Below are positions 6,458 through 20,806 of a stretch of 35,035 nt of DNA, piece after piece. The stretch's first letter is position 1; each line of letters begins with the position of its first letter. Source of the stretch: Halieaceae bacterium (GTDB lineage: Bacteria; Pseudomonadota; Gammaproteobacteria; Pseudomonadales; Halieaceae); assembly GCA_011524755.1 (NCBI GenBank), contig WTJR01000048.1, positions 1-35,035 on the forward strand, written 5' to 3'. Made by a program: the position numbers and the translations under genes. The notes under the pieces are model-generated. The model was not told the DNA's origin, made no database searches, and worked only from the letters and a program-made list of their open reading frames with translations.

Positions 6458-6694
<237 letters not shown>

Positions 6695-6724
6695 CTATTG
6701 AGTCTTAGTATGGAAGTTCAGAAA

Positions 6725-7624
<900 letters not shown>

Positions 7625-8116: not shown

Positions 8117-8998
8117 TTATTGGATACGATTCAAAATTCCGTCGAGCACGTCTAGGTCGCTGTACTGAATAACCAGCTTGCCACGGCCATTTTTATTTTC
8201 GATGACCACTTTGGTGCCAAAACGCTCTGAGAGTTGCCGCTCCAGCCGGTCGATATCAGGGTCTTTCCGCTGCGGGGCCGTATCAACAGCTGGCGCTAAC
8301 ATGGCTTTTACAAGCGCCTCTGTTTGTCTGACTGACAACTTGCTGTCCACAACTTTTCTTGCCGCGCGAACCTGATCCCCACCGTCCAATGCCAGAAGCA
8401 CCTTTCCGTGACCCGCATCAATTCGACCGTGCTCTAACATCTCTGACACTTCGCGCTCGAGGGACAGCAGCCGCATCAAATTCGCAATAACCGGGCGTGA
8501 TTTACCCACAGCTGTTGCGACCTCTTGTTGAGATAAATCAAATTCGGTCTGCAATCGCTTTAGCGCTCGGGCTTCTTCAAGTGGATTGAGGTTTTCGCGC
8601 TGGATGTTTTCTATCAGCGCCATTGCGATCGCTGTTTCATCGCTGATGTCGCGGACGATAGCCGGGATGGTATCCAAGGCGGCCAGCTGACTGGCTCGCC
8701 AACGGCGCTCGCCAGCCACAATTTCGTAACGATCTGCGCCAATAGATCTCACAACAATCGGCTGCATGACGCCTTGGGCTTTAATGCTGTCGGCCAGCTC
8801 TTGTAGCGCGGCTTCATCAAAGTCAATTCGAGGCTGATATTTACCGCGTTGTAAAAACTCCAGTGGTAATTGACGAAGATCACCATCCCCAGGTGATATT
8901 GTGCTCGCTTCTGCCGTGCCGGCCGGCGCTTTTTTGGTCAGGTCGGTCCCAAGCAGGGCGTCAAGGCCACGATTTAATTTTCGCTTTTTCGTGTTCAT
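8117..8998 (-). CDS. parB: Chromosome partitioning protein ParB
   Basis: KRKLNRGLDALLG, LPLEFLQRGKYQPR, IVAGERRWRASQLA, ALIENIQRENLNPLEEA. Confidence 0.97.
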   Translation of the reverse strand: MNTKKRKLNRGLDALLGTDLTKKAPAGTAEASTISPGDGDLRQLPLEFLQRGKYQPRIDFDEAALQELADSIKAQGVMQPIVVRSIGADRYEIVAGERRWRASQLAALDTIPAIVRDISDETAIAMALIENIQRENLNPLEEARALKRLQTEFDLSQQEVATAVGKSRPVIANLMRLLSLEREVSEMLEHGRIDAGHGKVLLALDGGDQVRAARKVVDSKLSVRQTEALVKAMLAPAVDTAPQRKDPDIDRLERQLSERFGTKVVIENKNGRGKLVIQYSDLDVLDGILNRIQ

Positions 8999-9076
8999 TC
9001 GCCTTTCCTGAGCACTTGTCGTTGTCTTGCACCATGTTTCATCACGTCACTGTCCATCAGTTTACCGGCCGAAATA

Positions 9077-9835
9077 TCACTGTCGACGTGAAAATTCTTC
9101 AGCAAGCGCCATGTACGCACGCGCGCCTCTTGAATATCGGTCATAAACAATCCCGGGTTCCCCGTGACTTGGTGCTTCTGCGAGTCGCACATTCCTCGGA
9201 ATCACTGTCCGATAAACGAGGTCACCAAAGTGGCTGAATAACTGCTCGGATACTTCTGTTGTCAGCGAATTTCTCGGATCATACATCGTTCGAAGAATTC
9301 CCTCGATTTCAAGATCGGGATTAACTGTCTCGTTGATCCGACGAATGGTATTCAACAAGGCAGAGAGCCCCTCTAGAGCGAAGTATTCGCACTGCATGGT
9401 GATGAGAATAGAATCACAGGCCACCATTGCATTGACGGTCAGCATGTTAAGAGAGGGAGGGCAGTCGATTAAGACAAAATCGTACGATGCTTCACCTTGC
9501 CGCAGTCCTTGCTTCAATCGTTTTTCTTTGCCCTCAACTTCGATGAGCTCTACCTCTGCTGCGGTTAGATCACCATTGGCCGGCAAAACAGAAAACTTAC
9601 CTGTGGGCGACTCGACCAAACACTCAGACAGCGATGCTTCCGCGAGCAACAGATCAAGCACAGATAGCTCTAGACCATTTTTTTCTATGCCAGAGGACAT
9701 GGTGGCATTGCCCTGAGGATCCATATCCACCAACAGCACACGCTTTCCCATCTGCGCCAACGAAGCAGCCAGGTTGACGCTTGTTGTTGTCTTACCAACG
9801 CCACCTTTTTGATTGGCTACGGCAATAATTTTCAT
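9077..9835 (-). CDS. parA: Chromosome partitioning ATPase ParA (Soj)
   Basis: [27 protein letters not shown] deviant Walker A; LLVDMDPQGNAT; directly upstream of parB. Confidence 0.97.
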   Translation of the reverse strand: MKIIAVANQKGGVGKTTTSVNLAASLAQMGKRVLLVDMDPQGNATMSSGIEKNGLELSVLDLLLAEASLSECLVESPTGKFSVLPANGDLTAAEVELIEVEGKEKRLKQGLRQGEASYDFVLIDCPPSLNMLTVNAMVACDSILITMQCEYFALEGLSALLNTIRRINETVNPDLEIEGILRTMYDPRNSLTTEVSEQLFSHFGDLVYRTVIPRNVRLAEAPSHGEPGIVYDRYSRGARAYMALAEEFSRRQ

Positions 9836-10470
9836 TTCTTATTCTCACCACGACGCAGCACAACTAACTGCCTCAATTCATCTAGCCCGGGTACCACCAG
9901 ATCGATTTGTTCGCTGATCTCTACAGATGTACTTAAATCCGCTATTTCAGTATCAACCGTTTGAGACTTCATGGCGAGCCAAACACCCTCTGTATCGAGT
10001 AAATGCGCTGTTAGATGACACATTCGATTTAAATCAGCGAATGCCCGACTCATCACAACATCGAAACCCTGGTCTGGTTGGTAAGTCTCAGCTCGCCCCT
10101 CAACAATACTGACATTGTCTAGCCTCAGTTGCTGGCGGACCTGATAGAGGAAACGGGTTTTCTTGCCGTTACTGTCCAGCAATACAAACTCTTTATCGGG
10201 GAAACACAGCGCCAACGGAATACCTGGCAGGCCTGCGCCTGTGCCAACATCACAGAGTCGCTTACAGGAGCTAAGATACGGCACCAGAGTAACGCTATCG
10301 AGGACGTGTTTAATCACCATGTCCTCCGGACGCCGCACGGCAGTCAGGTTATAGGGTTTATTCCATTTATGGAGCAAAGTGACGTAGTCCGTTAACGGTT
10401 CTGCTAACGCCACTTGTATATCGAGAGCCTTCAGCCCTCGGGTCATTTGATCAACTAAGCGTTCAGCCAT
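9832..10470 (-). CDS. rsmG: 16S rRNA (guanine-527 N7) methyltransferase
   Basis: [38 protein letters not shown]. Confidence 0.96.
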
Positions 10471-12361
10471 TGCTGACGGCGCGATCGGGAGCAGAATTGC
10501 TTTGCCGTCTCAGGTGTACCAGAAGCAGTGACAGCGCTGAAGGCGTAACACCCTGAATTCGACCCGCCCTTGCGATATTAGCGGGCCGAGTGTCTGTCAG
10601 TTTTTGACAGATCTCATTAGACAATCCAGACACTTCGGTAAAATCAAAGTCGCTTGGAATCAGCGTATTCTCGTGCCGTTTCAAACGATCAATTTCATCT
10701 TGTTGCCTTGCAATGTAACCAGCGTATTTCACACGTGTCTCTATGTGATCAGCGGTTGCCAAATCCGTAACGGGCGACCCTTTCAAGCCCGCTACATCGC
10801 TGTACGACAATTCCGGCCGCCGAATCAAATCCGCCATCGAATATTCTCGGTTGATAGGCGACTTTAGCTTGGCATCGAGAGCATTCGAAGCACCGGTATC
10901 AGGATGGATATAAGTTGACTCCAATCGTCCCAACTCCTCATCCACCACCGCTCGTTTGGCCTGATAAGCAGCCCAATGCGCTGACGATATCAATCCAAGC
11001 TCATTGCCTTTTGGCGTCAACCGCTCGTCGGCATTGTCTTCGCGAAGTTGCAGCCGATATTCAGCACGGGATGTGAACATTCGATAAGGCTCTTGCGTGC
11101 CCAACGTTACAAGGTCATCCACAAGAACACCGATATAGGCCTCATCGCGTCGTGGTTCCCAGGCATCGAGTTCGCGGGCATATCGAGACGCATTCAGCCC
11201 GGCAAGAAGCCCTTGTGCTCCAGCTTCTTCGTAACCTGTGGTGCCATTAATCTGACCAGCAAAATACAACCCAGTCACATGTCGTGTCTGTAAGCTGTGC
11301 ATCAAATCACGGGGATCAAAGTAATCGTATTCAATCGCGTAGCCTGGCCGCGTGATATGCGCGTTCTCTAAACCGGGGATGGTTCGAACCATGGCGTCCT
11401 GAATATCGAACGGCAGCGACGTTGATATGCCGTTTGGATACAACTCAGTGGTCGTTAATCCTTCAGGCTCCAAAAATATTTGATGGGAATTTTTATCGGC
11501 AAACCGGTGAATCTTGTCTTCAATGCTAGGGCAGTAGCGCGGACCTGTTCCTTCAATAACCCCACTGAACATGGGTGAGCGATCCAACCCACCACGAATA
11601 ATCTCGTGGGTAGCTTCGTTAGTCTTAGTCACCCAGCAACACAACTGCTGTGGATGTTGAGAGATTGACCCTAACTGAGACATCACTGGCCTTGGCTCGT
11701 CTCCCCATTGTTCTTCAAGAACCGAAAAATCCACTGAATTGCCATCAATTCGCGGTGGTGTGCCAGTTTTTAGTCTGCCGGTTCGAGGGCACAACTCGCG
11801 TAATCGATCTGCCAGCGTAACCACAGCCGCATCACCCATGCGCCCGCCCGACTGGTTTTCCATCCCAATATGAATCTTTCCATTCAAAAAAGTACCTGCG
11901 GTAAGAACACATGCAGGAGCAGAAAACCGAATACCTGTGGCGGTTCTAACGCCCGTCACTGTTTCACCAACGAGCTCAATATCGTCGACAGCATCCTGGA
12001 ATACCGTCAGGTTTTCTTGTGCAAAGAGTATTTGGCGAATCGCATTGCGATATAACACTCTATCGGCTTGCGCTCTGGTCGCCCTGACAGCTGGGCCTTT
12101 CCTTGCATTGAGTACTCTGAATTGAATGCCTGCGAGGTCCGTGGCTCTCGCCATCGCACCACCTAACGCGTCAATTTCCCTAACGAGGTGTGATTTACCG
12201 ATGCCGCCTATTGCCGGGTTACACGACATCTGACCTAACGTATCGATCGAGTGGGTAATAAGCAGTGTACGCACACCAGTGCGGGCAGCTGCCAACGCTG
12301 CTTCAGTACCCGCATGGCCACCGCCTACTACGATGACGTCGAACGTGCGATGAGTGCTCAT
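10463..12361 (-). CDS. mnmG: tRNA uridine-5-carboxymethylaminomethyl modification enzyme MnmG (GidA)
   Basis: [45 protein letters not shown]. Confidence 0.98.
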
Positions 12362-12391
12362 TTGCCGTCTTTGTTAGAAAAAAGGGCTGGG

Positions 12392-12420
12392 AGTATACGA
12401 ATAAATGTAGCTGAACTTAA
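12392..12420 (-). promoter_or_regulatory. Candidate mnmG promoter
   Basis: Minus strand TTAAGT-N17-TATACT; -10 is 5/6, -35 weak. Confidence 0.3.
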
Positions 12421-12558
12421 GTTATCGATCTCTTAGGCCGACAGATTCACAAAAGTTAGAGCTGTTTTTATCGTTAATTACGCCTTATAGAAAATCAAAT
12501 TTATATATATGTATTAGAAAAGATACTTTGATGTTGTTGTTATTAAGGCGCCTTTTTT

Positions 12559-12567
12559 TGTGGATAG
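12559..12567 (-). promoter_or_regulatory. DnaA-box-like site CTATCCACA
   Basis: TGTGGATAG on plus strand; one mismatch to TTATCCACA. Confidence 0.45.
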
Positions 12568-12723
12568 ATGCCCCATCACCAAGTAGCTCGAGGATTTACT
12601 CCATGTATAAGGTGTTTCATAAGATAGGAAAAACAACCCTATAAGGCCTGTGCTAATCGGGGATATCTCAATCTGTTGTTATGTCTCTTTCTTTTAATTC
12701 AATTTCTTCACAACGTCATGCAC

Positions 12724-12741
12724 AGAGTTGTCACCAACTCT
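12724..12741. repeat. Perfect hairpin AGAGTTG-TCAC-CAACTCT
   Basis: 7-bp stem, 4-nt loop read directly in the mnmG-mnmE gap. Confidence 0.7.
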
Positions 12742-12805
12742 ACTCACATCAGTACAGCGCGCGGCCTCTCGTAATCAATTTCTTAATGATGTTGTGGACA
12801 GGGTG

Positions 12806-14152
12806 TTACTTACCTATGCAAAAACTGCTGAAAATTAACCCCAAGATATCGTCACTTGCTACACGGCCCGTTAAAGAATCGATTGCGGTTTGAACCCGTT
12901 TTAGATCTTCGGCCAGTAGCTCTGCCGCGTTGTGGTGCTCGAAGGCAAGTAGAGATTCTGTGAGAGCGTGATGCGCTTCCAAGAGTGCGTCAACGTGGCG
13001 TTGGCGAGCGCTGAAAACAGAGTCTTGCGCCCCTTGTACCAATAATGAGCCCTCAATCGTTTGAATCAACGCGTTGATTCCATCACCTTTTTTGGCACTG
13101 ACTGCAACACAACGAGTTTCACCGTGATTCGGAAGTACGCCAGCTTGTCTGCCAGAGATATCAATTTTGTTTAGGACCTGAATATTAATGGCGGTATCAG
13201 GAAGCCATTCGGTATTAATTTCCTGTGGTTCATTGTCATCAATGATGTGAAGGACGAGGTCAGCATTCTGACTGCTGGACTTGGCACGCTTAACACCTTC
13301 TTGCTCAATGACGTCGTCTGTCTGACGAATGCCGGCCGTATCGATGAGATCCAGAATCACAGAGCCAGCTTTTATGCTTTGTTTTAGTGTGTCGCGTGTC
13401 GTACCCGGAACATCTGTGACAATGGCAATGTCATCACGAGCAAGTGCATTTAAGAGACTACTTTTACCGGCGTTTGGTGCACCAATAAGGACAGCCAGGT
13501 AGTGCTGGGTTTTGCGTTGCGATGCCGCAACATCGTTGATTAATTGCTCAATAGTGGCGTTGCAGTCGCGAAGCCTTGATATGACTGCATGGCGCTGTAA
13601 AACATCGATGTCTTCTTCAGGAAAATCGATGGATGCTTCTGTTAACGCTCTTAGCTCATTGAGTTGGTTAGAGAGGTCGCTGACCAACGCAGAAAATGCA
13701 CCTGATAATGAGGCAGACGCGAGCTTTGCTGCCGTTTCTGTTTCAGCTGTGATCAGATCGGCGATGGCTTCCGCTTGTAGTAAATCAATTTTACCGTTGA
13801 TGAAACTGCGCTCTGAAAATTCTCCGGGTCGAGCTTGCCTTGCCCCTAACTCAATGCATCGCGAGAGAAGTGCTTGTAAAACAATGTGTCCACCGTGCCC
13901 TTGAATTTCCACTACATCGTCACCGGTAAATGAGTTGGGACCGGGAAAGTAAATGGCTAGCCCGGAGTCAATGGCTTGACCTTCACTGTCGAGGAAAGAC
14001 CGGTAGTGAGCGTACCGAGGGGTGAGTTCTGATCCACTTAAAGCGAGCGCTATAGCGAGTGCATCAGGTCCACTTAAACGGATGATACCGACAGGACCGT
14101 TGCCGCGCGCCGTTGCGATAGCGGCGATCGTATCAGTATCAAGTCCGGTCAT
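12806..14152 (-). CDS. mnmE: tRNA modification GTPase MnmE (TrmE)
   Basis: DTIAAIATARGNGPVGIIRLSG, GAPNAGKSSLLNAL, DVPGTTRD, C-terminal LGLIFSSFCIGK. Confidence 0.98.
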   Translation of the reverse strand: MTGLDTDTIAAIATARGNGPVGIIRLSGPDALAIALALSGSELTPRYAHYRSFLDSEGQAIDSGLAIYFPGPNSFTGDDVVEIQGHGGHIVLQALLSRCIELGARQARPGEFSERSFINGKIDLLQAEAIADLITAETETAAKLASASLSGAFSALVSDLSNQLNELRALTEASIDFPEEDIDVLQRHAVISRLRDCNATIEQLINDVAASQRKTQHYLAVLIGAPNAGKSSLLNALARDDIAIVTDVPGTTRDTLKQSIKAGSVILDLIDTAGIRQTDDVIEQEGVKRAKSSSQNADLVLHIIDDNEPQEINTEWLPDTAINIQVLNKIDISGRQAGVLPNHGETRCVAVSAKKGDGINALIQTIEGSLLVQGAQDSVFSARQRHVDALLEAHHALTESLLAFEHHNAAELLAEDLKRVQTAIDSLTGRVASDDILGLIFSSFCIGK

Positions 14153-14173: not shown

Positions 14174-15865
14174 TTATCGCGCAGCGGCTTGCTCAATTTG
14201 TCGAGTAACAACGTATTGCTGAGCAAATGACAGAAGGTTGTTGCACAACCAGTACAACACAAGGCCTGCCGGGAACCACATCATCAAGAAGGTAAATGCG
14301 ATAGGCATGTACATCATGATTTTGGCTTGCATTGGATCTGGCGGTGCAGGATTGAGACGTTGCATCAGCCACATGCTAATGCCCATCAGGATTGGCAAGA
14401 CAAAATAGGGATCCATGGCTGAGAGATCTTCGATCCATAGAATGAAAGGTGCGTGTCGGAGTTCAACCGATTCGAGAAGCACCCAGTAAAGCGCAATAAA
14501 GACAGGCATCTGAATGAGCATAGGAAGACACCCACCCATTGGATTAATCTTCTCTTTTTTCCAGAGCTCCATCATGGCTTGCTGCTGTTTAGCTTTGTCA
14601 TCTGCGTACTGATCACGAATACTTTGAATCTTGGGCTGTACCGTTCTCATTTTTGCCATGGATTTATAGCTTGCTGCTGATAACCGGAAAAAGATCAGCT
14701 TGATAACAATGGTCAGCGCGATGATGGCCAGTCCCCAGTTAATAACAAACTGCTGGATTAAAGTGAGCAACCAGAAAAGCGGTTGAGCAAGCCACCAGAG
14801 CCAACCGTAATCAATAACGAGATCGAGGTTCTCAGCCAGCGCGGCGAGCGCAACTTGGTCTTTGGGGCCTACGTAAAGTGTTTGAGTGATGGTTGCGGCT
14901 GATCCTGGTGCGATATCAACGTTTTGGTTTTTGTATCCGATAACGTTGTCACCATTAGAGAGCTGGCTAGCAAAGTAATCGTGACTTGTCTGCTGCGATG
15001 GAATCCAAGCTGAGACAAAATAGTGCTGTAATATTGCCACCCAACCTGCGGGCAAACGTTTTGAGAACGGCTCATCACTCAAGTCAGAAAAACTGAGCTT
15101 TGTGTAGCGCTCATCGGGTTGCGTAAGCGCAGCGCCCAAATAAGGACTGACGCCGAAACCTGTGTTGCCGTCGGGTGCTTGCGTGTTATCTCGCTTCAGT
15201 TGAGCAAACGACGTGACAGATGCGACGGAGCTCCCGCCGTTTCTGATATCGAATGACACATCGACGTCATAGCGGTCATCATGGGCCGTGAAACGCTTGT
15301 AAACCTGCATTCCTAGCGAGTCATTGCCGGTCCAGGCCAATGTCAGCGTGTGGCTACCATCGTCGTTGTTAGTAACGCCTTGGCTTGCGTAACGCGCTCG
15401 GTTACCACTGGCATCAATACCATCGGGTCCTATGAGTCCGCTCTGAGCCACATAGCGTCGCAGGTTGTTGTTTTCTAATAATCTAAAGGGTTGATCAGGC
15501 GTATCGAGTCTAACCGGGAATTTTGGTAGAGACGCAGAAACAACATCACCCCCGTCAGCAGAGACAACCAAGTCAAGCGCGTCGGTAGATAAGTTAAACG
15601 TCTCGCTGTCATCGAGTAGCACTGAAAGAGGGTTTGTTTCTTGGTTAACACTCGGGATACCGTCATTGATTCCCTGGCTTACAGGCGCAGCTACTGATTC
15701 ATTGGTTGATACGCCAGGCTCCGTAATAGCGGCGGTATACAGTTCACTCTGCTGCTTTTGATACTCGTCAGAATACTGATTCCATTCAATAAGCAGCATT
15801 AAAGACAATACGGCGGTGGTGCTTATTAATAGTAGTCGTACAGGGTCCATTGAGGTCCTCGGCAT
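14174..15865 (-). CDS. yidC: Membrane protein insertase YidC
   Basis: N-terminal TM plus periplasmic domain; NPMGGCLPMLIQMPVFIALYWVLLESVELRHAPFILWIEDLSAMDPYFVLPI. Confidence 0.98.
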   Translation of the reverse strand: MPRTSMDPVRLLLISTTAVLSLMLLIEWNQYSDEYQKQQSELYTAAITEPGVSTNESVAAPVSQGINDGIPSVNQETNPLSVLLDDSETFNLSTDALDLVVSADGGDVVSASLPKFPVRLDTPDQPFRLLENNNLRRYVAQSGLIGPDGIDASGNRARYASQGVTNNDDGSHTLTLAWTGNDSLGMQVYKRFTAHDDRYDVDVSFDIRNGGSSVASVTSFAQLKRDNTQAPDGNTGFGVSPYLGAALTQPDERYTKLSFSDLSDEPFSKRLPAGWVAILQHYFVSAWIPSQQTSHDYFASQLSNGDNVIGYKNQNVDIAPGSAATITQTLYVGPKDQVALAALAENLDLVIDYGWLWWLAQPLFWLLTLIQQFVINWGLAIIALTIVIKLIFFRLSAASYKSMAKMRTVQPKIQSIRDQYADDKAKQQQAMMELWKKEKINPMGGCLPMLIQMPVFIALYWVLLESVELRHAPFILWIEDLSAMDPYFVLPILMGISMWLMQRLNPAPPDPMQAKIMMYMPIAFTFLMMWFPAGLVLYWLCNNLLSFAQQYVVTRQIEQAAAR

Positions 15866-16122
15866 TATTCGTCGTCGGATTTCGACAAGCTCGGATGTTC
15901 AGGGACAGGATCATAACCGCCGGCAGCCCATGGATGACAGCGGCAAATTCGTTTTGCAGCTAGAAAACTGCCTGAAACTGGGCCGTGTGACTCTAACGCT
16001 TCAATGGCGTATGACGAGCATGACGGAAAATAACGGCAGCGATTTCCAATAAAGGGACTGATCCCAACTTGATAGAACTTGATGGGCAGTTTCAGCAGCG
16101 CGGTTAGAACGTTATTGATCAT
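15865..16122 (-). CDS. yidD: Membrane protein insertion efficiency factor YidD
   Basis: LPIKFYQVGISPFIGNRCRYFPSCSSYAIEALESHG...CRCHPWAAGGYDPVP. Start placed at internal ATG (MINNVL...), overlapping rnpA by 11 nt. Confidence 0.93.
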   Translation of the reverse strand: MINNVLTALLKLPIKFYQVGISPFIGNRCRYFPSCSSYAIEALESHGPVSGSFLAAKRICRCHPWAAGGYDPVPEHPSLSKSDDE

Positions 16123-16486
16123 CTTCAAACCGAATCTGCGCGTGTTTGTGATTGAGCTTCCGCCAAAGGCGATCAAGATCACCTAGCACGTCTGCATTAC
16201 TCAATGCACCAGCACCTCGTTTTGCCATGAAAACAAGGTTCATCGAGGCTGAAAGGGGGTGGTTTCGAAAGTATTCCCTGACCAACCGTTTAATCCGGTT
16301 GCGATCAGTGGCCAGTCGCACGTTTTTCTTGGCAACAATAATACCGAGGCGAGAGCGATTGTCTGATGCAGGAAGGGCAAGCACGGTGCCAGCTGTTGAG
16401 CCGGCACGTATTGAACAGTTTTCGAAAACTTGGGAGTAGTCGTGGGCGTTAAGTAAGCGCGCGGTCTTTGGAAATTTGTGGGACAT
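16112..16486 (-). CDS. rnpA: Ribonuclease P protein component
   Basis: RLGIIVAKKNVRLATDRNRIKRLVREYFR signature. Confidence 0.96.
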   Translation of the reverse strand: MSHKFPKTARLLNAHDYSQVFENCSIRAGSTAGTVLALPASDNRSRLGIIVAKKNVRLATDRNRIKRLVREYFRNHPLSASMNLVFMAKRGAGALSNADVLGDLDRLWRKLNHKHAQIRFEDDQ

Positions 16487-16506: not shown

Positions 16507-16641
16507 TTACGCCGAGAGACGAAGACGTCCACGTGCACGACGACGAGCAAGCACCTTGCGGCCATTTTTGGTTGCCATGCGAGCACGGAAGCCGTGGTTA
16601 CGCTTGCGCTTCAGAACGCTGGGTTGAAAGGTGCGCTTCAT
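16507..16641 (-). CDS. rpmH: 50S ribosomal protein L34
   Basis: Reverse complement translates to [44 protein letters not shown]; below the ORF-track length cut-off. Confidence 0.98.
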
Positions 16642-16682
16642 ACGAATGCCTTTACATCAATGCGGTTGTCAAAGGGGGCGGA

Positions 16683-16711
16683 ATTATAGGGACCCCCTGT
16701 GTGACTGGCAA
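16683..16711 (-). promoter_or_regulatory. Sigma70 promoter for rpmH-rnpA
   Basis: Minus strand TTGCCA-N17-TATAAT, upstream of rpmH ATG. Confidence 0.7.
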
Positions 16712-16867
16712 TAGCTGGGAATGTAAAAAAGTAAGTGGTTACAAAACGATTATTTTTTTTGGGTTAGTGGCCGCTTACTGGGATCGACTGTATTGCTGTC
16801 TTTTTACCAGTTTGGATGAAGCGCTTGGTCGTGTTTTGCCACAAAGCATCCATAAGTTATTAAAAAG

Positions 16868-16876
16868 TTATCCACA
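16868..16876 (+). promoter_or_regulatory. DnaA box TTATCCACA
   Basis: Exact consensus 9-mer in rpmH-dnaA gap. Confidence 0.85.
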
Positions 16877-16984
16877 GAAAAACAAAAATACGGCTTGCAT
16901 TTTTATTTTTTTATGAGAAACCCCTACAAACCAGTAAACCACTGATTTATATGGTTTTTATTTTTGTTGAACTGGAGATAAATG

Positions 16985-16993
16985 TGTGGATAA
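16985..16993 (-). promoter_or_regulatory. DnaA box TTATCCACA
   Basis: TGTGGATAA on plus strand, exact consensus, opposite orientation to the 16868 box. Confidence 0.85.
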
Positions 16994-17099
16994 CTATACA
17001 CCGTTGTCGTGGAGTGGCGGATTATTGAGCCAGTAGTCGACATAAGCACTGCAATAAGTCGCAGATTCGCCTCAATTCGCCTTGAAGAGCAATAACAAC

Positions 17100-18551
17100 A
17101 TGCAAATAGCGTCTCAATCTTCTTCGCCAGTTTCGAATACCGTGCTGTGGACACAGTGTCTCGAAGAGCTGCGGCGTGAAGTGCCAGAAGTTCAATTCAA
17201 TACCTGGGTGCGACCTTTAACCGTAATGGAAGATGGCGCTGACTTTGTGTTGTGTGCACCCAATCGGTTTATCCGGGATTTTGTAGAAGAAAAATACAGC
17301 GCAACCATCTCTCAGTGCCTCGCTGCGGTGAGTACCGAGGCGTCCTTGGTGTCGGTGAGGGTTGTAACGGGCGCTGGCGGGTCAATCACGACCCAGCCAG
17401 CTACGGTAAATAACGAGTTGAGTCTGCCCACGCACACTCCGATTCAGGATGATCGGGCTGCGAGAGTGGCGCCGGCAGAGCCGTCACGAATAGTTAAAAA
17501 ACAAGCGCCCGCCGTCGTGGTGCCGTCGCATCAGCACAACCTAGTAGACGGGTATACCTTTGCTAATTTTGTAGAGGGTAAGAGCAACCAGCTAGCGATG
17601 GCCGCTGCTCAGCAGGTTGCTGAAAGTCCGGGTGACGCCTACAACCCGCTGTTCCTCTACGGAGGCGTAGGTCTGGGAAAAACCCACCTGATGCATGCGG
17701 TAGGTAACGCGCTCAGGCAGCGCAAACCCGACGCTAAAATTGTTTACTTGCATAGCGAGCGTTTCGTCGCCGACATGGTGAAGGCTCTGCAGCTCAACGC
17801 GATTAACGACTTCAAGCGGTTTTACCGGTCAGTAGATGCATTGTTGATTGATGACATCCAGTTCTTTGCGAACAAAGATCGCAGTCAGGAAGAGTTTTTT
17901 CACACGTTTAATGCGTTGCTAGAGGGTGGCCAGCAGATGATCTTGACCTGCGATCGTTACCCGAAGGAGATCGATGGAGTCGAGGAGCGCTTGAAGAGCC
18001 GTTTTGGGTGGGGCCTAACAGTGGCGGTGGAACCGCCAGAACTGGAGACCCGTGTCGCCATTCTTATGAAGAAGGCAGAGCAGTCAGGTATCGAAATGTC
18101 TCATGAGGCAGCATTCTTTATTGCGCAACGAATCCGATCGAATGTTCGTGAACTTGAGGGTGCGCTCAAGCGAGTTATTGCGAGTGCGAATTTTACCGGC
18201 AGGCCTTTTGATATCGATTTGATCAAAGAGAGCCTGAAGGATCTTTTGGCCCTGCAGGATAAACAGGTCTCACTAGAAAACATTAAGCGGACGGTTGCGG
18301 ACTACTATAAGATTAAGGTTGCGGATTTGTTGTCGAAACGCCGAAACCGCTCGGTCGCGCGCCCTAGACAAGTAGCCATGGCGCTGTCGAAGGAGCTAAC
18401 GAATCATAGCTTGCCGGAGATTGGCGATGCGTTTGGGGGGAGAGACCACACGACAGTGCTTCACGCTTGTCGTAAGATAGCGGAGTTGCGTGGAACAACA
18501 TCGGATATTGGGGAAGATTATAAGAATCTGCTGCGCTTACTGACTACGTGA
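17100..18551 (+). CDS. dnaA: Chromosomal replication initiator DnaA
   Basis: [47 protein letters not shown]. Start uncertain (ATG 17100 or TTG 17082). Confidence 0.97.
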
Positions 18552-19717: not shown

Positions 19718-20806
19718 TTGCTAACGCAGCTATCAATCCAAAACTTAAGAAATGTATCTGAGGCCTCTCTGGAATTGTCTGGGGGGTTGTCAGTGTTTAC
19801 GGGCCTTAACGGTGCCGGTAAAACCTCGGTGCTTGATGCTGTTCATATCTTAGGGACGGGCAAATCTTTCACAACGTCGCAGCTTAGCAAGGCCATACGC
19901 AACGAACAGCCAGGGCTCCAAGTGGTAGGCCGCATGAAATATGGAGGCGCCGAATCCGTGATTGGGATCAGGCGGTTGCGAGCGGGAGGTGGCGAAACCC
20001 GACTATCAGGCGCCCCCGTGAAGGCTTTATCAGAGCTTGCTCGTGAACTCCCGCTAGTTCTTTTAAACGCTGATTCATTGAATGCGCTCAGGGAGGGCCC
20101 AGAGGCGCGGCGGCGACTGATCGATCAAATGGTGTTCCACGTGGAACATTCGTATAGCTCGTCGTGGCAGCGATATCATCAGGCCTTGAAACAACGCAAT
20201 ATTCTGCTTCGAAAGACGCGCAGCGGTGATGATGATGCGTGGACAAGCGAAATGGCGGCTGTGGGCGAGCAGGTTCATCAGGCCAGAGAGCGAGTTACCG
20301 CGTTGTTATCGGATGAGGTGTCCGAGGTTTTGGCATCAATGGGCGTTGGGTTTCCTGATATGTCATTGGTTTTAAGGTCTGGATGGGCTGCGGGTGAGTC
20401 GTTGACTAGTGCGTTAAACGCCAGCGCGCAAAGTGACAGGCAGCGTGGCTTCACGCAGGTGGGCCCGCATCGCGCGGATTTACAGTGTTTGCTGGGGAGT
20501 AGGCCGGCGAATGAGGTTTTGTCTCGCGGTCAAATGAAGGTTCTGATGTCTGCTATGCGGGTGGCGCAGGGCCGGGTACTCGCAGAGGTGACGGGTCGTG
20601 CGCCCGTGTTTTTATTGGACGATGTGGGTGCAGAGCTTGATGGTGATAATGCTAGAGCCGTTTTTTCTGTCTTGGCCGAAAAAAAGGCGCAGGTGCTTGC
20701 AACCGCGGTGTCCCTGGGTGACCTCTCTAGGTGGGCAAATTTTGCTCCATTAACGGTGTTCCACGTGGAACAAGGGGTGATCACAGAGACCAAATCAGTG
20801 GCATAA
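19718..20806 (+). CDS. recF: DNA replication and repair protein RecF
   Basis: LSIQNLRNVSEASLELSGGLSVFTGLNGAGKTSVLDAVHILGTGKSF; LLDDVGAELD. TTG start; no ATG or GTG in frame between it and the dnaN stop. Confidence 0.95.
   Translation: MLTQLSIQNLRNVSEASLELSGGLSVFTGLNGAGKTSVLDAVHILGTGKSFTTSQLSKAIRNEQPGLQVVGRMKYGGAESVIGIRRLRAGGGETRLSGAPVKALSELARELPLVLLNADSLNALREGPEARRRLIDQMVFHVEHSYSSSWQRYHQALKQRNILLRKTRSGDDDAWTSEMAAVGEQVHQARERVTALLSDEVSEVLASMGVGFPDMSLVLRSGWAAGESLTSALNASAQSDRQRGFTQVGPHRADLQCLLGSRPANEVLSRGQMKVLMSAMRVAQGRVLAEVTGRAPVFLLDDVGAELDGDNARAVFSVLAEKKAQVLATAVSLGDLSRWANFAPLTVFHVEQGVITETKSVA
20133..20148. promoter_or_regulatory. parS: parS centromere site TGTTCCACGTGGAACA (copy 1)
   Basis: Perfect 16-bp palindrome, close to the B. 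subtilis-type consensus TGTTTCACGTGAAACA and the Pseudomonas-type parS; parAB is in the same window. Confidence 0.93.
20757..20772. promoter_or_regulatory. parS: parS centromere site TGTTCCACGTGGAACA (copy 2)
   Basis: Second perfect copy, 624 bp from the first, at the 3' end of recF. Confidence 0.93.

Follow-up and report, generated by a model that had tools for sequence, protein, structure and literature searches.

A probable chromosomal replication origin in the mnmG-mnmE gap of a Halieaceae bacterium

The gene cluster and its two intergenic gaps

The window analysed here is a stretch of 35,035 nucleotides that comprises one whole contig of a draft MAG (1.85 Mb in 220 contigs, ~83% complete) of a marine bacterium of the family Halieaceae. 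Among named genomes its closest relatives are Halieaceae MAGs, one of them called Luminiphilus. Within the window lies a cluster in the order parB, parA, rsmG, mnmG, gap A, mnmE, yidC, yidD, rnpA, rpmH, gap B, dnaA, dnaN, recF and gyrB, and this order is kept in relatives, including parB-parA. The pair parB and parA (8117-9835, minus strand) is assigned from a ParB match (TIGR00180), from ParA-type ATPase matches that lie under the curated ParA cut-offs, and from the conserved gene order. Next come mnmG (gidA; 10463-12361, minus strand, TIGR00136), with the fourfold skew of a left replichore, and beyond gap A mnmE (12806-14152, minus strand, NF003661/TIGR00450), which has the fourfold skew of a right replichore despite lying on the minus strand. 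The skew of yidC (14174-15865, minus strand, NF002352) is like that of mnmE. It is followed on the same strand by yidD and rnpA (15865-16486), where rnpA matches TIGR00188 and yidD is assigned from its position and an order conserved in relatives, and by rpmH (16508-16642), assigned from position and conservation in relatives. The genes dnaA (17100-18551, TIGR00362), dnaN, recF and gyrB are all on the plus strand.

There are two side observations to the right of gap B. A parS-like palindrome, TGTTCCACGTGGAACA, occurs twice within recF (20133-20148 and 20757-20772) where 0.23 copies would be expected by chance; the copies lie ~8 kb from the proposed origin, with parAB on its opposite side. There is also a match to the Rfam family AsdA, an antisense RNA of the dnaA mRNA, at 17658-17738 on the minus strand (54.2 bits, compared with a gathering score of 52), which may reflect mere conservation of the dnaA coding sequence.

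Gap A (12362-12805) is the candidate oriC, marked out by a skew switch, a conserved core and AT-richness, and it contains no annotated gene. Its existence and composition had been noted in a first-pass annotation made from the sequence alone, and both hold: with the end of MnmG at 12361 and the start of MnmE at 12806 (complement) the gap is exactly 444 bp, and its GC content is ~37.6%. In a nearest-neighbour stability scan of the entire window the 50 bp with the lowest stability are 12485-12534 (1.015, compared with a mean of 1.437), and this is the probable DNA-unwinding element. The second-lowest value, 1.131, is found at 16948-16997 in gap B. Alignment of 12-13 relatives and a profile search define a conserved putative origin core, TATATATATG-tattagAAAAGATActttgatgTTGTTGTTATTAaGG-n12-TGTGGATAG, at 12499-12570 on the plus strand, with the layout in the alignment of an AT-rich run, AAAAGATA, TTGTTGTTATTA, ~12 bp and TGTGGATAG. 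The core resembles the last 13-mer and R1 of E. coli oriC, and is conserved as far as distant Halieaceae.

Potential DnaA boxes lie in both parts of gap A. On the mnmG side, like R1 in E. coli, a box scan finds the R1-like CTATCCACA with one mismatch (12559-12567, minus strand), represented in relatives by TGTGGATAG, TGTGGACA or TGTGGAAA. The mnmE-ward part of the gap contains four weak boxes on the plus strand (12704-12748), TTCTTCACA, TCATGCACA, TTGTCACCA and CTACTCACA, that start at 12704, 12716, 12728 and 12740 and are therefore spaced in exact 12-bp steps (p 0.003 against 300 dinucleotide shuffles). Most of the nearest relatives have a similar plus-strand 12-bp array; none was seen in several more distant Halieaceae, and in some of these the array has 11-bp steps. 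A further weak box, CTGTCCACA, lies at the mnmE end (12793-12801, minus strand). The perfect box TTATCCACA was absent from gap A on scanning the window and all of its closest relatives. GATC occurs once in gap A of the window and 0-4 times across the Halieaceae, and SeqA (PF03925) was absent from seven genomes including that of this bacterium, where the E. coli control was positive. With GATC so scarce and no SeqA found, sequestration of the enterobacterial kind would not be expected. Searching Rfam gave no origin-related family in gap A, and a literature search found no mention of a Halieaceae origin between mnmG and mnmE.

Gap B, between rpmH and dnaA (16643-17099), is the rival location, and is probably the dnaA promoter with a DnaA-binding platform. 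DnaA-like sites follow one another in 11-bp steps at 16835-16876 on the plus strand, ending in a perfect TTATCCACA (16868-16876); their p value of 0.007 is the floor set by 150 shuffles. A second perfect box in inverted orientation (16985-16993, minus strand) lies 117 bp from the first. The pair of perfect boxes at a spacing of ~117-120 bp is kept in most Halieaceae, and the pair, or the second box at least, in nearly all. The E. coli dnaA gene is autoregulated via DnaA boxes in its own promoter (PMC5835720), so the simplest reading of the boxes in gap B is that they most likely serve dnaA autoregulation in the same manner. We also considered the number of near-perfect DnaA boxes as an origin test. 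This points to gap B, and we rejected it as misleading because the boxes of gap A are weak and phased.

GC skew around the mnmG-mnmE gap

The first-pass annotation had reported, from partial hand tallies, that the plus-strand GC skew changes sign between mnmG and mnmE. Counting the full genes gives G/C values of 447/528 for mnmG, 346/313 for mnmE, 430/392 for yidC and 171/139 for yidD plus rnpA, and thus skews of -0.08, +0.05, +0.05 and +0.10. The switch of sign is therefore confirmed, but its size had been exaggerated by the partial tallies. The minimum of cumulative GC skew in the window is at 12331, only 31 bp from gap A.

The effects of gene direction and protein composition were stripped out by a change-point analysis that used fourfold-degenerate sites only and took orientation as a covariate (30 genes, 2877 sites in the window). 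The best switch is at 11900, with 2-lnL support from 10900 to 13200, and gap A is better than gap B by 7.99 lnL units. The earlier assertion that gene orientation does not explain the change of sign is thus borne out, since the orientation-corrected switch still falls at 10.9-13.2 kb; so too is the choice of the mnmG-mnmE gap over the rpmH-dnaA gap, given the window minimum at 12331 and a deficit of 8.0 lnL for gap B. The skew switch is more than chance. There is in addition some gene-specific bias in the genes between the gaps, because these exceed even the skew expected for the right replichore. Skew alone would be weak evidence for an origin, and reflects long-term averages.

As the genome of this bacterium is fragmented into 220 contigs, complete relatives were sampled, comprising three genomes of its genus, each a single contig (2.7, 2.7 and 3.3 Mb). 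In all three the skew of 20-kb samples is below zero left of the mnmG-mnmE gap and above zero right of it, the exceptions being one weak sample (L121, -0.007) and those near the expected terminus. In contiguous stretches of 160 kb the minima are at 2482358, 602028 and 1016555, each inside the mnmG-mnmE gap or no more than ~150 bp away, and in the fourfold change-point analysis gap B does worse than gap A by 4.1, 5.6 and 4.5 lnL. Cumulative skew in the window and in the complete relatives thus has its minimum at the mnmG-mnmE gap, and the fourfold sites prefer this gap to rpmH-dnaA.

The same step is seen across the family. In 40 of 41 Halieaceae loci the plus-strand fourfold skew of the genes from mnmE to rnpA is greater than that of the genes from parB to mnmG, all of them on the minus strand. 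The median difference is 0.22, compared with 0.06 in nine genomes in which mnmG and mnmE have almost no gap between them (rank test p 0.0007, for loci that are related and hence not independent). One control locus with strong skew and an mnmG-mnmE gap of 106 bp (L230) has its skew switch and minimum in the rpmH-dnaA gap, where there are four perfect and five one-mismatch DnaA boxes.

Distribution of the conserved core

Pairwise alignment of gap A to E. coli oriC gives modest similarity, with z = 3.5 for the window, 7.6 for the locus L197 and values near 0, down to -0.3, for other members. Since this was too weak and variable, we used instead a profile of the core built from 13 relatives. The profile recovers gap A in a large part of the remaining Halieaceae. 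In the genome of this bacterium the sole match is gap A (E 8e-19), and in the genomes G000, G058, G060, G112 and G098 there is a single match, always at mnmG; the core also adjoins mnmG in the complete relatives of the same genus. Of the ten genomes searched, two (G001 and G102) had no match at E 1. In one member of the Halieaceae (G054) mnmG and mnmE are 13 kb apart, and the core is still 173 bp from mnmG. The core was never matched in the rpmH-dnaA gap of any Halieaceae locus or genome.

On iteration over 4.1 Mb of loci the profile matches gap A in Halieaceae and the dnaA-dnaN gap in other gammaproteobacteria (L241:12557-12601, L240:12584-12637, L215:7418-7461 and L103:1123-1159), so that dnaA-dnaN appears to be a third address of the core. 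The iterated profile touches the R1 region of E. coli oriC weakly (E 1.7 in 4.1 Mb), a match that taken by itself is only suggestive.

The other two addresses emerge from a search of 118 genomes of the order, taking matches with E up to 0.005 together with some weaker matches in those positions. Only matches that share a contig with mnmG or dnaA were placed, leaving a few elsewhere unplaced, and the further families of the order are known from match coordinates alone. In families f1, f139, f145, f148, f151 and f158 the core lies 117-317 bp from mnmG. In f2, f146, f150, f153 and f156, and with a weaker match in f135, it lies ~300-550 bp upstream of dnaA; in several of these dnaA-side families mnmG has moved away or lacks a gap. 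Family f4 has matches at both addresses, the dnaA-side one being weak.

One member of the Pseudomonadaceae (G255, locus L225) has paralogous sequence in its mnmG-mnmE gap (6470-7000) and its rpmH-dnaA gap (10899-11422), with z = 14.3. The DnaN of this locus is very close to solved clamps that we take to be of the Pseudomonas type. Both copies resemble gap A in many members of the Halieaceae, with z up to 6.5 (~2 or less for the window), and do not resemble Halieaceae gap B (z -0.7 to 1.9). Two other f3 genomes match the dnaA-side sequence of L225 beside mnmG.

Assignment of the origin and comparison with known systems

Taking these observations together, we consider it very probable that gap A is the chromosomal oriC, both in this bacterium and across its family. 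The proposal of the first-pass annotation that the origin lies in the mnmG-mnmE gap is supported by the recurring position of the skew switch, the core with its unwinding and R1-like elements, the weakest duplex of the window, the phased boxes and the profile matches. By analogy with E. coli, DnaA would bind the R1-like box at 12559-12567 and assemble along the oppositely oriented 12-bp array at 12704-12748. The complex would then melt the AT-rich 12485-12534 beside R1, and the helicase would be loaded. Two forks would leave the gap, leftward via mnmG-parAB and rightward via mnmE-yidC-rnpA-rpmH-dnaA.

The alternative in which both gaps initiate, as a dual or bipartite origin with its parts 4 kb apart, seems to us very improbable. 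It would account for phased DnaA sites and weak duplexes being present in both gaps, and it could appeal to the paralogous sequence in both gaps of L225 and to the two autonomously replicating elements reported from P. aeruginosa, yet the same source describes only one of them as essential (PMC4403523). If gap B fired in a share f of initiations the genes between the gaps would lose skew. In a simple mixture model the combined estimate is best at f = 0, with f = 0.5 worse by 9.4 lnL and an upper limit of ~0.12, a limit of ~12% that is approximate because the genes between the gaps slightly exceed the full right-replichore expectation. Slightly less probable again is an origin in gap B alone, as reported for Pseudomonas, with the skew of mnmE-yidC-rnpA arising from gene-specific composition. 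The two perfect, position-conserved inverted boxes of gap B, where gap A has none, its 11-bp array and its second-weakest duplex would all fit such an origin, as would the description of P. aeruginosa oriC as adjoining dnaA (PMC3642087) and the presence of the core upstream of dnaA in other families of the order; moreover, every gene would then run with the fork. It is however rejected by 4-8 lnL in four genomes, the core that marks dnaA-side origins elsewhere is absent from Halieaceae gap B, and genomes without an mnmG-mnmE gap show no systematic skew step between mnmG and mnmE. Least credible of all is that the skew minimum is the scar of a rearrangement and gap A merely a promoter region. 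A skew minimum need not mark an origin (Mackiewicz et al. 2004, cited in PMC4403523), but gene order and minimum are identical in the complete relatives, and a promoter would leave unexplained the unwinding/R1-like core, its matches at the origin sites of other lineages and the 12-bp array.

Placing the origin in gap A has consequences for the annotation of these genomes. Origin finders and genome rotation conventions often take dnaA as the mark of the origin. In Halieaceae this mark would be ~4 kb off, and would give the wrong direction of replication for mnmE, yidC, rnpA and rpmH, which are transcribed against the fork if gap A is the origin.

In its location the proposed origin belongs to the mnmG-side type already known from E. 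coli and V. cholerae, here without mioC. E. coli oriC (NC_000913.3, 3925744-3925975, in the mnmG-mioC gap) likewise adjoins mnmG and has its AT-rich element on the mnmG side, followed by a TTATTAg motif, ~12-13 bp, TGTGGATAa (R1) and more boxes toward the next gene; its own sequence, on the corresponding side of mnmG, reads AAAAGAAGATCT...TTATTAG, 13 bp, TGTGGATAA. Gap A differs in lacking mioC, in having a single shorter run where E. coli has three 13-mers, and in having no perfect DnaA box and few GATC, with SeqA not found; and dnaA is just 4.3 kb from the proposed origin. Dense GATC with SeqA sequestration is a regulation of enterobacterial type and is not required of an mnmG-side oriC. On chromosome 1 of V. 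cholerae the order is parB-parA-gidB-gidA-ori-...-mioC, with 474 bp for gidA-ori-mioC, and the origin region is reported together with rpmH-dnaA-dnaN-recF-gyr (PMC5603330). The parB-parA-gidB-gidA-ori order and a similar length are thus shared with Halieaceae, while mioC lies between ori and the following genes in V. cholerae; the likeness is one of gene order and length. The first-pass annotation had called the gene order Pseudomonas-like and contiguous. The cluster is common to Pseudomonas and Halieaceae and its contiguity holds, yet the order also matches that reported for V. cholerae, minus mioC.

The contrast drawn there between a Pseudomonas type and an E. coli type of origin is correct in placing gap A on the mnmG side, but is less sharp than was assumed, because L225 has paralogous origin-like sequence in both gaps. 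We think it reasonably likely that, across the order to which Halieaceae and Pseudomonadaceae belong, one core has moved repeatedly between the flanks of mnmG and dnaA by way of a duplicated state. In Pseudomonadaceae the rpmH-dnaA origin would then be a copy of the mnmG-side one, and the E. coli and Pseudomonas classes would be one homologous element at two addresses. This apparent movement of the core between two gaps 4 kb apart is the more novel part of the analysis. Origin duplication within the cluster could account for the two autonomously replicating elements of P. aeruginosa; these elements and the dnaA-side origin of Pseudomonas, set against the mnmG side in E. coli and Vibrio, would become a history, open to testing, of how the origin was copied inside a single gene cluster.
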